Of a stretch of 37,355 bases of DNA, positions 2,933-8,341 are shown one piece after another. The stretch covers positions 1 to 37,355 of the forward strand of contig CAIOKD010000062.1 in assembly GCA_903858835.1 (NCBI GenBank). The letters run 5' to 3'. The translations under genes and the position numbers were made by a program. A model generated the notes under the pieces. The model saw only the letters and a program-made list of their open reading frames with translations. It did not search any database and had not been told where the DNA came from. This DNA comes from an uncultured Verrucomicrobiota bacterium. Its GTDB lineage: Bacteria > Verrucomicrobiota > Verrucomicrobiia > Limisphaerales > UBA9464. Position 1 is the stretch's first letter; every line of letters starts with the position of its first letter.

Positions 2933-4039
2933 TCAGAGCCCGGCAGCCCAGGGTTCCAGGGCGTCCAAGACCGACGCCACGGAGACCGACGCCATGAGCG
3001 CGACCAGCGCCTCTGCAGTGCCGGCGATCGGCCGCCCATCGTATCGATAGAACTCAAGATGCCGCCCCCCGATCGCCGGATTGGGAATCAGGGTCCACTC
3101 CCGCCGGCGCGGATGGACGGGCGGATTCAGCGTCGGCGTCTCGATCACCCACTGGCGGGGAACCCCCATCGCCGACGCGATGTGCATGAACACGGTGTCG
3201 ACGCTCAGGAATCCCCCGGCATGCCCCACCAGGGCCATGGCCTCGCGCAGCCCCGGAGACTGCGCCTCCAAGAATTCGGCGCCCGCCGCCCGCAACTCGC
3301 CGTGCAGAGCGCGCTCCTCGTGCGCCCCGAACAGGACGATGGGAATCGCCGGATGCCGTCGGGTCCATTCCTGGATCAGCGCGGCATACCGCGCCACGGG
3401 CCAACGGCGCAACGCGAGGTTCTTGGTGCCCCCCGATCCGGTGTGGATGCCCAACCAGGGGCGGCCCGCGAGGTTCCGTTCCTCGAGCCATCCGCGGGCC
3501 CAAGCCCGCTCGTCTTCGGTGAGGAACACCTCGTACCCGGGATGTCCAAGCCGCGGGGCCAAGCCCAGCAACCCGATCAGCCGGGCGTTGTTCTCCATCA
3601 CGTGCACCGAATAATCCTGTGGCAGCGAACGGGTCACCAGCCATCGGTCCATCCACGACTGGTTCTCGTATTCGTGACTGAGCCGCGTTTCGGCGCCGAT
3701 CAACCGGGCGATCAGTCGATAGCCCCGGCGTCCCTGGGTGTGGGTGTTGATGGAGAGATCATACCGACGCCGACGCAGTTCCAGACATCGGGCCACCGAT
3801 GACAGACTCCCCTCCTTGAGGAAATCATGCCGGATCACCTCGCGGACGTTCGGATTGCTCCGGAGAACCTCTGCCGCACCCGCCCACAGGACCAACACAT
3901 CGATCTCCGCCGACGGAAACTGGAGATGCAGCTCATGCAACAGCGGGGTCGCCATGAGCGTGTCGCCGATGCCGGAGAGGGACAGGACGAGGATTCGCTT
4001 CACCGTGCCGACACGGTATGGACCGGTGACGATGGCCAC
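2933..4039 (-). CDS. Glycosyltransferase family 9 protein (heptosyltransferase-like)
   Basis: GT9 enzymes transfer ADP-heptose or related sugars during lipopolysaccharide core or glycan assembly on the cytoplasmic face of the membrane. The protein has 368 residues and a two-Rossmann GT-B plan. The N-terminal glycine loop LSGIGDTLMATPLL is at about 21-34. The nucleotide-sugar segment HTGSGGTKNLALRRWP is at about 199-214. The conserved SVDTVFMHIASAMGVP segment is at about 279-294. A GTG at codon 13, just before KRILVLSLSGIGD, is an alternative start that fits the family better, so the first 12 residues may not be translated. The acceptor cannot be told from sequence. It is convergent with hisH and divergent from rho. 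Confidence 0.92.
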   Translation of the reverse strand: MAIVTGPYRVGTVKRILVLSLSGIGDTLMATPLLHELHLQFPSAEIDVLVLWAGAAEVLRSNPNVREVIRHDFLKEGSLSSVARCLELRRRRYDLSINTHTQGRRGYRLIARLIGAETRLSHEYENQSWMDRWLVTRSLPQDYSVHVMENNARLIGLLGLAPRLGHPGYEVFLTEDERAWARGWLEERNLAGRPWLGIHTGSGGTKNLALRRWPVARYAALIQEWTRRHPAIPIVLFGAHEERALHGELRAAGAEFLEAQSPGLREAMALVGHAGGFLSVDTVFMHIASAMGVPRQWVIETPTLNPPVHPRRREWTLIPNPAIGGRHLEFYRYDGRPIAGTAEALVALMASVSVASVLDALEPWAAGL

Positions 4040-4113
4040 AAGGCGGGGGAAGATCCGCTCCGCAGGGACCTTCAGGTGCCATCGAGGATGGGCCTCTCCA
4101 TCGGGCGCGTTTT

Positions 4114-4198
4114 TGTCGCCCTAAATGACTTGCGGCGACCGGAGTTCAGCACAATCTTGTCTCTCCGCAGGTGGCGACACACTCCTCGAGTGTCGCCC
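4114..4198. promoter_or_regulatory. Repeated GGCGAC/GTCGCC stem-loops in the rho upstream region
   Basis: Four copies of one hexamer alternate in orientation: GTCGCC 4115-4120, GGCGAC 4134-4139, GGCGAC 4173-4178 and GTCGCC 4192-4197. The first and last are embedded in an identical TGTCGCCC. They can form stem 4115-4120/4134-4139 plus the stronger 8-bp stem GGCGACAC/GTGTCGCC (4173-4180/4190-4197). Alternatively the copies can pair crosswise. This is attenuator-like geometry about 105-185 bases upstream of the rho ATG. The copies could equally be DNA operator sites for the divergent pair. Confidence 0.45.
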
Positions 4199-4301
4199 AT
4201 ATTCCCCCCGGTCCTATTTCCGCTCGGAACTGCGTTGGCGTCTTTGAGGACGCTCCCGAGGCAGACCCATCCCAAACCCATTTCCAAGGAACCGTTTCCC
4301 A

Positions 4302-5906
4302 ATGCCCCGCGCACCGAAAGACCCGTCCGCACCCAAAAAGGCACGGACGCCCCGAAAGAAGTCCGAGATCCCGCCGGAGTCCGCGGATGAATCGCCGAAA
4401 TCCTCCAAACCCGAGGCACCGATCGCAGCCGCGGAATCCACCCCCCGGATCAACACCGCCGAGGACACCTCGCTGAACGTGCCGCCGCCCCAGCCCGGAC
4501 AGGTCCGCACCCGGGAGGCCGACGAGGAGCCCTTGGTCGTCAAAGCATCCCCGCTGCCGCCCCGGGCACGCATGGCCCCGCCCAACGAGGATGCGCCCGT
4601 GCCCGATGCCCCCGAGAAACCCCAGGTGGTGATCGAGCCGAAGACCCTCAACCTGCACGAATTGCAACCGATGCCCATCGGGCCTCTGGCCGACGTGGCC
4701 AAGCATTTCGGCATCGAGAACTACGGCACGCTCAAGCGCCAGGAGATCATCTTCCAGATCGTCCAGCGCAACCTGGCCGCCGGCGGCATCATCAACACCC
4801 GCGGCGTCCTGGAGGTGATGCCGGAGGGCTTCGGTTTCCTGCGTTCCCCGGCCTTCAATTACCTGCCCTGCCCCGAAGACATCTACGTGTCCCCGTCGCA
4901 GATCCGCCGCTTCGACCTGGCCACCGGCGACGATGTCGAGGGACAGGTGCGCCCGCCGAAGGACAAGGAGAAGTTCTACGCCCTGCTGAAGGTCGAGCGC
5001 GTGGCCGGACTCGATCCCGACAAGGCGAAGGAGAAGACCCACTTCGAGAACCTCACCCCGCTGTTCCCGAATCGGCGCTTCCTGCTCGAGACCTCGCCCG
5101 ACGAATACAGCACCCGGGTCGTCGACATCGTCTGCCCCGTCGGCAAGGGGACCCGCGGCCTGATCGTCGCCCCGCCCCGCACCGGCAAGACCGTGCTGAT
5201 GCAGAAGCTGGCCAACGCCATCCTCAAGAACAACACCGACTGCCACCTGATCATCCTGCTGATCGACGAGCGCCCGGAGGAGGTCACCGACATGGAGCGT
5301 TCCTGTCGCGGGGCCGAGGTGGTGAGTTCCACCTTCGACGAGCCGCCCGAGCGTCACGTCCAGGTGGCCGAGATGGTCATCGAAAAAGCCCGGCGCATGG
5401 TCGAGCACAAGAAGGACGTGGTGATCCTGCTCGATTCGATCACCCGCTTGGCGCGCGCCTACAACACGGTGCAGCCGCATTCGGGCAAGATCCTCTCGGG
5501 CGGCGTCGACGCCAACGCATTGCACAAGCCCAAGCGCTTCTTCGGGGCAGCCCGCAACATCGAGGAGGGCGGATCCCTGACGATCATGGCCACGGCGCTG
5601 GTCGACACCGGCAGCCGCATGGACGAGGTGATCTTCGAGGAGTTCAAAGGCACCGGAAACATGGAGATCCACCTCGACCGTTCGCTGGTCGATCGCCGCA
5701 TCTTCCCCTCGATCAACATCGAGAAGTCCGGCACCCGCAAGGAGGAGCTCCTGTACCATCCCGACGAATACCAGCGCATCTCCGTGCTGCGCCGCGCCCT
5801 GGTCGGTGTCCCACCCGTGGAATCGATGGAACTGCTGCTCGGCAAACTCAAGAAGACGCCGAACAACATCATGTTCCTGCTGTCCATGGGCGCGCCCTCG
5901 CGTTGA
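4302..5906 (+). CDS. rho: Transcription termination factor Rho
   Basis: Rho is the hexameric RNA-dependent ATPase and translocase that terminates transcription. The protein has 534 residues, over 100 more than E. coli Rho. The excess is an N-terminal extension of about 115 residues rich in Pro, Lys, Glu and Ala. The Rho N-terminal helical domain starts near [21 protein letters not shown], then the cold-shock-like RNA-binding domain with GFGFLRSP. The ATPase core has the P-loop APPRTGKT (290-297, K296), Walker [17 protein letters not shown], and the Q- and R-loop region running from [17 protein letters not shown] to [25 protein letters not shown]. The P-loop has RT where E. coli has KA. It is convergent with the CarH-like gene. 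Confidence 0.98.
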
Positions 5907-5921
5907 GGGCCGAGGCACCGA

Positions 5922-5937
5922 CGCGGTTTCAACCGCG
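5922..5937. terminator. Short GC hairpin between convergent rho and carH-like genes
   Basis: CGCGGT-TTCA-ACCGCG forms a 6-bp stem with a 4-base loop, just after the rho stop and overlapping the stop codon of the minus-strand gene. No U-run follows on either strand, so if it acts in termination it is not a classical intrinsic terminator. Confidence 0.3.
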
Positions 5938-6951
5938 CCCAAGCGGACCATGTGATCCGTGGGCGGACTCTCCGCGCAGGCGATTGAGTTGGTCGCGCAG
6001 ATCGTCGAGCCCGCCCACCAGAACCGCTCCGATCGATTCGATCTCGGAACGGTAGGCTGCGCTGGCTCGCCCCCCCACCAAGATCCGGGTGGAGGCGGGC
6101 AGCAGACGCCGGAGCAGCTTCAGCTCCAGAGCGAGTGACGGATCGCCGGTGGGGTGCACCACGCTCAACCCGACGGCCTTCGCCCCCTGCTCGGTGGCCA
6201 TTCCGGCGATCTCCTCGGCCGGAAGGCACGCACCGCCGTAGACCACGCGCCAGCCCAGGCCGGTGGAGGCAGCGGCAACGATGATCGCCCCCAGTTCATG
6301 CACCTGTCCGGAGGGCGTGGTGACCACCATCACCGGGGCCCGCGGGTGCAGAGCGATCGGCCGGGCGATGTTCCCCAGGAAGGTACGGAGGACCGACGTG
6401 GCCACGTGCTCCTGCGACACCTTCACCTCGCCGCGCAGCCAACCATCCCCGATGCGCTCGACCAGCGGCACGATCAGCTCAGCCAACAGCCGCATCTGAC
6501 CCATCGCCACGGAGGCTCGTTCCAGCAGGCCCTCCAGGCCCGCAGCGTCGGTCCGCAACACCGCCTGGAAGGCTCCCTCCAGGAAGCCCAAGGTTTCTTC
6601 GGCGGCTGGCGCGCTCCCGACAACGAAGGGCACTCCGATGCCCCCGCCGACGGGCGAGAATTCTCTGGAATGCTCTACGGAGGCGAAACCCCGATCGGAG
6701 CCCGATAGAAGGGAGCGCAGGGAATCGACGGAAAGAGACGCGATGGTTCCGATCGAAAACCCGGCCTCGGTCGCGCGACGCAGCAGAGTCAATCGCTCGA
6801 TGTCCGCGGCCGAATACAGGCGCTGCCTGCCCTCGGAACGGGCCGGACGAACCGTCTGATAGCGTTTTTCCCAAGCCCGAATGACATGGGGACTCAAACC
6901 CGTTTGCTGTGCGACGGTCCTGATCGAATGCTTGACCGCGGGATCACTCAT
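5929..6951 (-). CDS. CarH-like MerR-family regulator with B12-binding domains (putative light and adenosylcobalamin sensor)
   Basis: The protein has 340 residues from ATG 6949-6951; the frame is open further upstream but homology starts at [12 protein letters not shown]. Residues 8-75 are a MerR winged helix ([23 protein letters not shown]). A linker of about 40 residues follows, then the four-helix cobalamin cap (about 120-195) and the Rossmann B12 domain (about 205-325). The CarH photoreceptor signature W-x9-EH is exact: W171, then E181-H182. The lower axial histidine H218 lies in QVHELG, where the usual E/DxHxxG motif has glutamine first. CarH proteins bind adenosylcobalamin as tetramers in the dark, repress, and fall apart in light. 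Light sensing here is inference from the W-x9-EH signature. The gene is divergent from a sigma factor, with repeated putative operators between them. Confidence 0.92.
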
Positions 6952-6962
6952 TTCCGAACAAC

Positions 6963-7010
6963 GTTGACCGAAAGTTGAACACAAGCAAGACATACGAATC
7001 CAACTTAGAC
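6963..7010 (-). promoter_or_regulatory. Putative operator for the carH-like gene (CTAAGTTGG copy and 11-bp-spaced GTTGA repeats)
   Basis: On the minus strand, GTCTAAGTTGG (7010 down to 7000) matches the motif found twice on the other side of the spacer. It lies directly downstream of a TTGAAA box (plus-strand 7017-7022), that is, where a MerR-type protein usually binds. Nearer the gene, GTTGA occurs at 6963 and 6974, exactly 11 bases apart. No good -10 box was found at the standard distance. Confidence 0.45.
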
Positions 7011-7079
7011 AAAGGATTTCAAAAAGGACCAACCAAACACCAAAAAACCATGAAATCAGGTCTTTGTTGAAAATTGTTA

Positions 7080-7134
7080 GACATTTCGAAATCCATTTGT
7101 TGACATTTCGTCTAAGTTTGAACTAAGTTGGTTG
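7080..7134 (+). promoter_or_regulatory. Promoter with phased 11-bp repeats upstream of the sigma factor gene (putative CarH operator)
   Basis: Five consecutive 11-mers can be aligned without gaps from 7080: GACATTTCGAA, ATCCATTTGTT, GACATTTCGTC, TAAGTTTGAAC and TAAGTTGGTTG. GACATTTCG recurs after exactly 22 bases and CTAAGTT after exactly 11. A perfect -35 box TTGACA (7100-7105) sits inside the array; the -10 region 17-18 bases downstream is weak (TAAGTT). Weaker units may extend upstream to about 7058. CarH of Thermus binds 11-bp direct repeats overlapping the -35 region, so the arrangement fits repression by the divergent regulator. Confidence 0.6.
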
Positions 7135-7189
7135 CAGCTCGCTTCCAAAGGTCCGTCCACGGAAATCTCAACTCCAGAAATCTACGCTG

Positions 7190-8341
7190 ATGAAATCCAG
7201 AAAGCTCCCCCGCAGCAAGGCGACCTCCCCGTCAAAGCCCTCCAAAGCCACGAAACGGGCCGCCCTCACTCGGGCCACCTCCTCCAAGCGGAAGCTGCAG
7301 CGTAAAAAATCAGCCTCTCGGAAAAACATATCGCCCACCCCTCCGGCTCGCCCGGTGACCGTGCGGTCGATCTCCCAAGCTCCTCGCGCGGCCAAGGGTC
7401 GCGGTGAACCCGTCGCGCAAAAGCCCGGGGTGCTCATGGTCGACGGAATCCCCGTGGTGCCAACCCCGGCCGAGCCGGTCCGCGACCTGTACGAGTCGAA
7501 GAGCGCCCTCAATCTCTACATGCGCGAGGCTGTGGAAGTGCCTCTGCTGACCGTGGCCGAGGAGAATGCCCTGGCTGCGAGGATCAAGAAGGGCGACCCG
7601 GTGGCACGTGAACACATGATCCGGGCGAACCTGCGTCTGGTGGTGAAGATCGCCAAGGATTACGACGGTCTCGGGCTTCCCCTGCTCGATCTGATCAACG
7701 AGGGGAACATGGGCCTGATGAAGGGTGTTGAACGTTTCGACCCCTCCAAGGGCGGCAAGCTCTCCACCTACAGCTCCTGGTGGATCAAGCAATCGATCAA
7801 GCGGGCCCTGGCCAACCAGTCCAAGACCATCCGCCTGCCGGTGCACCTGGTGGACAAGATTTCCCGGATGCGCCGGGTGGCCATGGAACTGCAGGAACTC
7901 TTCGGCCGCGAAGCCACGGACGAAGAGATCGCCGAGGAGATGGAGGTGCCGCTCCGGAAGGTGAGGCTGTGGCGCCGGGCGTCCCTCCGCACCAGCTCCC
8001 TCGACGAATCCCTTGGCGACGAGGATTCCAGCAAGCTGGGCGACGTGGTTCCTGATGAGTCCTGCCAGACCCCCTACGAGGACCTCGAGAGCCGAACCAC
8101 CCATCAACTGCTCCAGAACAGCCTGCACATCCTGGACTCGCGCGAGATGACCATCCTCCGGGAGCGATTCGCCCTCGACGGCGGTCAGGAGAAGACCCTC
8201 GACGAGATCGGGCAGAAGTTCGGCGTCACCCGAGAGCGCATCCGCCAACTCCAGAATATCGCGCTGGCCAAGCTTCGGAAGAAGATCGAAGCGGTCGAGG
8301 CGGTCCGGATCCCGGAGACCGCCGAGGACGGCATCCACTGA
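7190..8341 (+). CDS. RNA polymerase sigma factor, sigma-70 family (RpoD/RpoS-like, group 1 or 2)
   Basis: The protein has 383 residues. The first 90 or so form a basic Lys/Ser/Pro/Ala-rich tail without a recognisable region 1.1. Region 1.2 is at about 105-138 (NLYMREAVEVPLLT). Region 2 is at about 139-212, with DLINEGNMGLMKGVERFDP and the -10 recognition part LSTYSSWWIKQSIKRAL. Region 3 is at about 219-295, and region 4 at about 305-367 with the -35 helix GVTRERIRQLQNIALAKLRK. Regions 2 and 4 are very close to primary sigma factors, so it should read ordinary -35/-10 promoters. The short size suggests a group 2 (RpoS-like) factor, but a primary role is not excluded. It is divergent from the CarH-like gene behind phased repeats, which suggests light- or B12-controlled expression. 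An intrinsic terminator follows. Confidence 0.96.
   Translation: MKSRKLPRSKATSPSKPSKATKRAALTRATSSKRKLQRKKSASRKNISPTPPARPVTVRSISQAPRAAKGRGEPVAQKPGVLMVDGIPVVPTPAEPVRDLYESKSALNLYMREAVEVPLLTVAEENALAARIKKGDPVAREHMIRANLRLVVKIAKDYDGLGLPLLDLINEGNMGLMKGVERFDPSKGGKLSTYSSWWIKQSIKRALANQSKTIRLPVHLVDKISRMRRVAMELQELFGREATDEEIAEEMEVPLRKVRLWRRASLRTSSLDESLGDEDSSKLGDVVPDESCQTPYEDLESRTTHQLLQNSLHILDSREMTILRERFALDGGQEKTLDEIGQKFGVTRERIRQLQNIALAKLRKKIEAVEAVRIPETAEDGIH

Follow-up and report, generated by a model that had tools for sequence, protein, structure and literature searches.

The window, i.e., the whole 37,355-nucleotide stretch of DNA analysed here, is contig C62 of a 3.0 Mb, 78% complete genome whose named relatives are Verrucomicrobiota metagenome-assembled genomes (MAGs), lake or pond isolate names being common among them. 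It carries, as the preliminary description had proposed, a MerR/B12 regulator gene of the CarH/LitR type (5929-6951, reverse strand), encoding a MerR winged helix, a cobalamin-binding four-helix bundle and a Rossmann domain, divergent from a group-2-like sigma-70 family gene (7190-8341, forward strand), encoding regions 1.2, 2, 3 and 4 and a basic low-complexity N-terminal tail. The 238-bp spacer between them (6952-7189), a divergent promoter and putative operator region, was rightly described as AT-rich, with 40% G+C against 66% in the window. The two genes are adjacent and divergent in nearly all relatives. Other neighbours at the locus are rho and, judging from the open reading frame translations, acpS-like and pdxJ-like genes; no carotenoid gene was found among the neighbours examined, nor under the operator-array matches discussed below, which lie at sigma, fasciclin and PQQ-propeller genes.

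The regulator and the sigma factor

The regulator, 340 residues long, scores above the Pfam cut-offs for MerR_1, B12-binding_2 and B12-binding, and its top sequence matches in the PDB are those of Thermus CarH (3whp and 5c8d, E about 1e-30). Thermus CarH structures also rank first in a fold search with its AlphaFold2 model (mean pLDDT 88.7, with low confidence in linker 88-113), the B12 domain of which compares with that of Thermus CarH at a TM of 0.86 and 2.4 Å. The domain test for CarH/LitR B12-binding MerR regulators (class I type) assigns the protein to that group, and on the NCBIfam CarH equivalog (NF052513) it reaches 135.5 bits, under the curated cut-off of 400. Judged from domains, signature and operator, it is a CarH/LitR-type B12 regulator outside the narrow CarH equivalog.

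The signature referred to (GxxW/EH/GxxH/GxxxP), given for light-responsive B12 domains (PMC11796333), is complete in the regulator: G168..W171, E181 H182 (Wx9EH), G215..H218 and G240...P244. W171, E181, H182 and H218, which correspond to the residues capping or ligating adenosylcobalamin (AdoCbl), are invariant in 28 orthologues, and when the GxxW-x9-EH, GxxH, GxxxP pattern was counted over wider relatives as well, the signature proved to be kept across the sigma-linked clade. The window genome encodes two PF01923 cobalamin adenosyltransferases. The position of Thermus His132, the residue after W171, is leucine in the window regulator, and the sigma-linked orthologues of the family have L, M, I, R, Q or E there, never histidine. 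This residue is the upper ligand of the light state (bis-His) in Thermus CarH and is variable in other B12 photoreceptors, so that it does not define the family. The H132A variant of Thermus CarH photolyses, yet largely remains tetrameric in the light (PMC10442372), and CtMerR, with arginine at the same position, retains AdoCbl photolysis (PMC11796333). No sigma-linked orthologue of the family has His132, so the light step could be a different one; together with the behaviour of H132A and of CtMerR, this suggests that AdoCbl-dependent light sensing by the regulator is likely, and that the coupling of light to DNA release may differ from that of Thermus CarH. Natural CarH homologues lacking His132 are directly relevant to which step after Co-C photolysis releases the DNA.

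The sigma factor (383 residues) exceeds the Pfam cut-offs for regions 1.2, 2, 3 and 4. On the NCBIfam model RpoD_Cterm (TIGR02393) it obtains 262 bits, below the cut-off of 354, and thus fails as RpoD; the primary RpoD of the genome is a separate gene on contig C24 (398 bits). An ECF identity, as for LitS or CarQ, which have regions 2 and 4 only, is ruled out by regions 1.2 and 3. By its domain content the sigma factor is group 2-like, neither RpoD nor ECF. Its N-terminal tail (7190-7500) has roughly 100 residues rich in Lys, Arg, Ser and Pro, and tails of a similarly basic kind occur in relatives.

Repeats and promoter in the divergent spacer

An array of five ungapped 11-mers (7080-7134) had been proposed in the spacer, together with a 9-mer recurring in reverse in front of the regulator gene, and all these motifs lie where they had been placed: GACATTTCG at 7080 and 7102, 22 bp apart; TTGACA at 7100; CTAAGTT at 7112 and 7123, 11 bp apart; and CTAAGTTGG at 7123, with its reverse complement at 7000. 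From the window sequence alone the significance of the array is modest: of 1000 dinucleotide shuffles of the spacer, 79 contained a 55-bp block equalling the lag-11 identity of 7080-7134, and 6 had an identical 9-mer recurring at a distance divisible by 11. An alignment of 13 congeneric spacers has as its only strongly kept words tTAGACAa (7077-7084), TTGAca (7100-7105) and GTT.ac....T..acA.aatCAAGac (6963-6991); neither the CTAAGTT pair nor the 9-mer at 7000-7008 is generally kept. The proposed 11-mer frame, weak on its own in the shuffles and unconserved in its CTAAGTT units, was therefore not taken at face value, and 7000-7008 was discarded as a second operator. The 11-bp phase is real, and only part of the array appears to be the functional unit.

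CarH operators of Thermus, Bacillus and myxobacteria have been described as 11-bp repeats, nnnnTnnACAn, in three to five copies, some degenerate, that lie over the -35 or -10 and may include pseudo-repeats (PMC9304148, PMC8156234). Direct repeats of this form overlapping the -35 are present in the spacer, all on the forward strand. Two cores match the consensus exactly, TAGACA (7078-7083, in the direct repeat 7074-7084), kept in the genus alignment and in the 11-bp register of 37 spacers, and TTGACA (7100-7105, in the direct repeat 7096-7106), kept in the genus alignment and placed by its -10 spacing as the -35 of the sigma gene; between them, in register, lies a degenerate pseudo-repeat (7085-7095, core AATCCA at 7089-7094) that reads ...nCA in many congeners. 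Weaker flanking pseudo-repeats, identified by sequence and register, are centred on TTGAAA (7067-7072, in 7063-7073) and TCTAAG (7111-7116, in 7107-7117). The candidate operator has therefore two strong cores and pseudo-repeats, not three perfect repeats, of which a pattern search found none in the window genome, and its DR-dr-DR order (7078, 7089, 7100) resembles myxobacterial arrangements.

Conservation of the 11-bp register, which had been put forward as a check, was examined in 37 orthologous spacers, where TnnACA is kept in exact 11-bp register. On the sigma sense strand, lags 11, 22, 33 and 44 give 40, 23, 7 and 8 TnnACA pairs, respectively, with shuffle means of 0.33 to 0.38 (0.38 at lag 11 and 0.35 at lag 22; maxima 3 and 2), and most other lags from 6 to 29 give 0 to 5 pairs (lag 19 gives 8). 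The exact 11/22 register is found in 32 of the 37 spacers, 0.7 being expected. When the set is pruned for similarity to 26 spacers, 30 pairs remain at lag 11 and 16 at lag 22, and 22 spacers have at least one pair (0.54 expected). TnnACA also lies mainly on one strand of the orthologous spacers (171 vs. 36).

On the regulator side, congeners keep T..ACA-N5-.AAGAC (6976-6991), and several distant spacers have a repeat pair no more than about 30 bp from where the regulator gene starts. In the window this pair is formed, on the forward strand, by the direct repeat core TGAACA (6976-6981; T..acA kept in the 13 congeneric spacers) and, 11 bp on, by AAGACA (6987-6992; CAAGac kept in the same spacers), and the conservation of the pair is consistent with autorepression. 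An extra TAGACA half-site (7006-7011, forward strand) is unconserved.

TTGACA is spaced as a true -35: with a 17-bp spacer, 19 of 24 aligned promoters have A at the second -10 position, the most constant downstream column. The candidate -10 of the sigma gene, backed by this conserved A in relatives, is CTAAGT (17-bp spacing) or TAAGTT (18-bp spacing), within 7123-7129 on the forward strand. In most relatives the putative -10 starts with C or G (CAnnnT-like), not T; a sigma factor different from RpoD may recognise it. The candidate -10 of the window is a poor match to TATAAT, and a sigma-70 consensus scan gave no promoter above threshold. A classical MerR activator site, with a dyad between -35 and -10 and a 19-20 bp spacer, was rejected, the window having instead direct repeats over and upstream of the -35 and a 17-18 bp spacer.

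The probable target gene and repeats elsewhere

In two family genomes (G030 and G069) the regulator and its sigma partner are found on different contigs; there the unlinked sigma promoter keeps TAAACA-11-TTGACA and a perfect triple TAGACA-11-TGAACA-11-TTGACA, respectively, and no repeat pair was found in the upstream regions of the regulator genes thus orphaned. A more distant sigma gene (65% identity), also unlinked, is preceded by TAGACA-11-TAAACA in G028 and by TAGACA-11-TTAACA in G034, and as a control none of 20 upstream regions (600 bp each) of paralogous group-2 sigma genes has a pair. A sigma orthologue (at least 71% identity; one split gene) occurs in 39 of 50 family genomes, all 39 of which also have the regulator, and the four of the 50 that lack the regulator lack the sigma orthologue too; these four belong to one genus, and may thus represent one or two losses. 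The regulator very probably shuts off the sigma gene through the conserved 11-bp repeat. The earlier proposal of a CarH-type regulator acting on 11-bp repeats over the sigma -35 hence comes out of the conservation test stronger than before, and probably extends to the regulator's own promoter, whereas CTAAGTTGG and CTAAGTT do not stand as its units.

The pattern TWGACA-N16-TWGACA has 13 matches in 19 congeneric genomes, 11 of them being TAGACA-N16-TTGACA at the regulator/sigma spacer. This 22-bp pattern was used for the congeneric search in place of two tandem T[AT]GACA at 11 bp, which has zero matches in the window genus except in G008, because the pseudo-repeat lies between the strong cores and sets them 22 bp apart. 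As the strict pattern is almost confined to the divergent pair, the direct regulon in the window genus may include little beyond it.

In relatives, fasciclin (FAS1) genes have 11-bp arrays upstream in G008 and G021, and in G012 such an array separates a FAS1 pair from a second CarH paralogue. PQQ-propeller genes are preceded by arrays at L137 and L148, from two species that share a genus. At the CarH-like locus L088, three perfect repeats precede an operon ending in a PQQ-propeller gene, with a textbook TTGACA-N17-TATACT promoter. Such arrays before genes of secreted proteins (fasciclin at L139, L138 and L150; PQQ propeller at L137, L148 and L088) suggest further direct targets in relatives. 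No fasciclin gene was found in the window genome. A fasciclin gene, RSP_1409, is among the photo-oxidative-stress genes of Rhodobacter sphaeroides (PMC7074977), and an Azospirillum fasciclin is reported to be under RpoE-ChrR control (PMC10949492); these links, together with the arrays before fasciclin genes, favour, without proving, a photo-oxidative role of the circuit. Array matches at L134, L136, L144, L146, L149, L153 and L156 were judged from their context to be due to chance.

In a deltaproteobacterial MAG (L093:2353-5918) a CarH-like gene is divergent from DUF4397-FAS1-sigma70 genes, and the region between them holds TTGACA/TAGACA repeats spaced by 11 bp. Methanotrophs (Methylotuvimicrobium, Methylomicrobium and kin) have a CarH-like gene with WH (His132) divergent from a sigma-70 gene (L116, L117, L122 and L124-L128; the regulator lies at about 5001 and the sigma gene at about 3415-4860), the sigma factor being about 480 residues long in those examined. 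The methanotroph pairs were not accepted as the same system, as the spacers examined are without 11-bp TnnACA pairs and thus point to a parallel CarH-sigma association only.

Proposed circuit and known systems

We consider it quite probable that the locus encodes an AdoCbl-dependent CarH/LitR-type repressor with a non-ECF sigma-70 factor as its main conserved target. This reading is built on the computed family, fold and signature, on the repeats and their conservation, on their retention at the unlinked sigma promoter and on the co-occurrence of the two genes, from which we infer that the regulator represses rather than activates, binds AdoCbl and responds to light, and what the sigma regulon contains. 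In the dark, with adenosylcobalamin present, oligomers of the regulator would bind the 11-bp repeats (DR 7078, dr 7089, DR 7100 and the weaker flanks), covering the -35 of the sigma gene and blocking RNA polymerase; the regulator would also sit on the second conserved pair (6976/6987) beside its own start and repress itself. Green-to-UV light, through Co-C photolysis, or a lack of AdoCbl would release it, and the sigma factor would then be made and transcribe a secondary, probably photo-oxidative-stress, gene set.

The replacement of His132 in all sigma-linked family orthologues speaks against such a repressor, as Thermus H132A stays largely assembled in light, and so do the score on the CarH equivalog (135 against 400 bits) and the make-up of the window array, which has two strong cores and pseudo-repeats in place of three perfect repeats. 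A CarA-like or B12-only variant, which would use the same repeats and control the same sigma gene while sensing B12 status, redox or a partner protein and not light directly, would account for a position that is never His in the sigma-linked clade; it is in line with the largely tetrameric state of H132A Thermus CarH in the light (PMC10442372) and with CarA of M. xanthus, which needs no B12 and is released by CarS. We nevertheless regard this variant as rather unlikely, given that the clade keeps every residue of the published photoreceptor signature, the adenosyl-capping W and the EH among them, that CtMerR with its Arg still photolyses AdoCbl (PMC11796333), and that other sigma-linked CarH-like proteins, those of the methanotrophs, keep WH.

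The weak -10 of the window is a further point against repression, since it would equally suit a promoter needing activation. The changed, light-state form of the regulator could then recruit RNA polymerase from the repeats to the weak sigma promoter, as an activator or as a dual regulator similar to Streptomyces LitR, which has been described as repressing litS in the dark and activating it in the light (PMC12705666). The repeats, however, overlap the -35 itself, which is the repression layout of Thermus, Bacillus and myxobacteria, and the classical MerR dyad with a 19-20 bp spacer is absent, the spacer here being 17-18 bp, so that activation appears improbable to us. That the repeats are due to chance or to ordinary promoter composition (TTGACA in A+T-rich DNA), with no relation to the regulator, might be argued from the 8% of shuffles reaching the lag-11 similarity of the window; the 11/22 register of 32 out of 37 spacers (against 0.7), the repeats kept when the genes are unlinked and their absence from the 20 paralogue upstream regions leave this explanation scarcely credible.

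At even chances, in our estimate, the repressor and its sigma gene form a family-wide circuit of Verrucomicrobiota, in which a B12 photoreceptor without the bis-His residue controls a group-2-like sigma-70 factor as its main conserved target, and green light or B12 supply reaches a large gene set by sigma switching, not by carotenoid derepression. Such a circuit would put a B12 photoreceptor in control of an alternative sigma factor that has housekeeping-type regions and is not of the ECF kind, and would predict light/B12 control of transcription in lake Verrucomicrobiota, the family being mostly freshwater. If this is true, the methanotroph pairs and the deltaproteobacterial CarH-like gene divergent from an operon ending in sigma-70 would make it a recurrent design. 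The operator grammar (TnnACA every 11 bp) is kept well enough for such circuits to be mapped in MAGs from sequence alone. A literature search, incomplete in its coverage, found no paper on light/B12 control of transcription in lake Verrucomicrobiota, nor any joining Verrucomicrobia, CarH and a sigma factor.

The closest known logic is that of LitR-LitS in Streptomyces coelicolor, where the B12-dependent LitR controls its own gene and a sigma gene, and LitS transcribes photo-protective genes (PMC5401885, PMC12705666); LitS is, however, an actinobacterial ECF factor, while the sigma factor of the window has regions 1.2 to 4, belongs to Verrucomicrobiota and has no carotenoid cluster at its locus. 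With CarH of Thermus thermophilus, Bacillus megaterium and the Myxococcales, the regulator shares domain architecture, fold, Wx9EH, the lower His and nnnnTnnACAn over the -35, but those proteins are known to target carotenoid genes (and, in Thermus, the gene of a CRP-type activator), whereas the window regulator is without His132 and has a sigma gene as its best conserved target. In CtMerR and the other B12 photoreceptors retrieved with SignatureFinder the GxxW/EH/GxxH/GxxxP signature is complete too and the His132 position is taken by a residue other than His; they differ in that the available text of the report describes no sigma-gene target (PMC11796333). In CarQ/CarR of Myxococcus xanthus and RpoE/ChrR of Rhodobacter a sigma factor is likewise the output of a light or singlet-oxygen signal, and the photo-oxidative-stress genes of R. 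sphaeroides include a fasciclin gene, as do the apparent CarH-type targets in the relatives of the window; there, however, an ECF sigma factor is held by an anti-sigma factor, not by repression of its gene. CarH repression over the -35 and the LitR-LitS logic being already known, the new part would be a non-ECF sigma-70 factor as the main target kept across a Verrucomicrobiota family.
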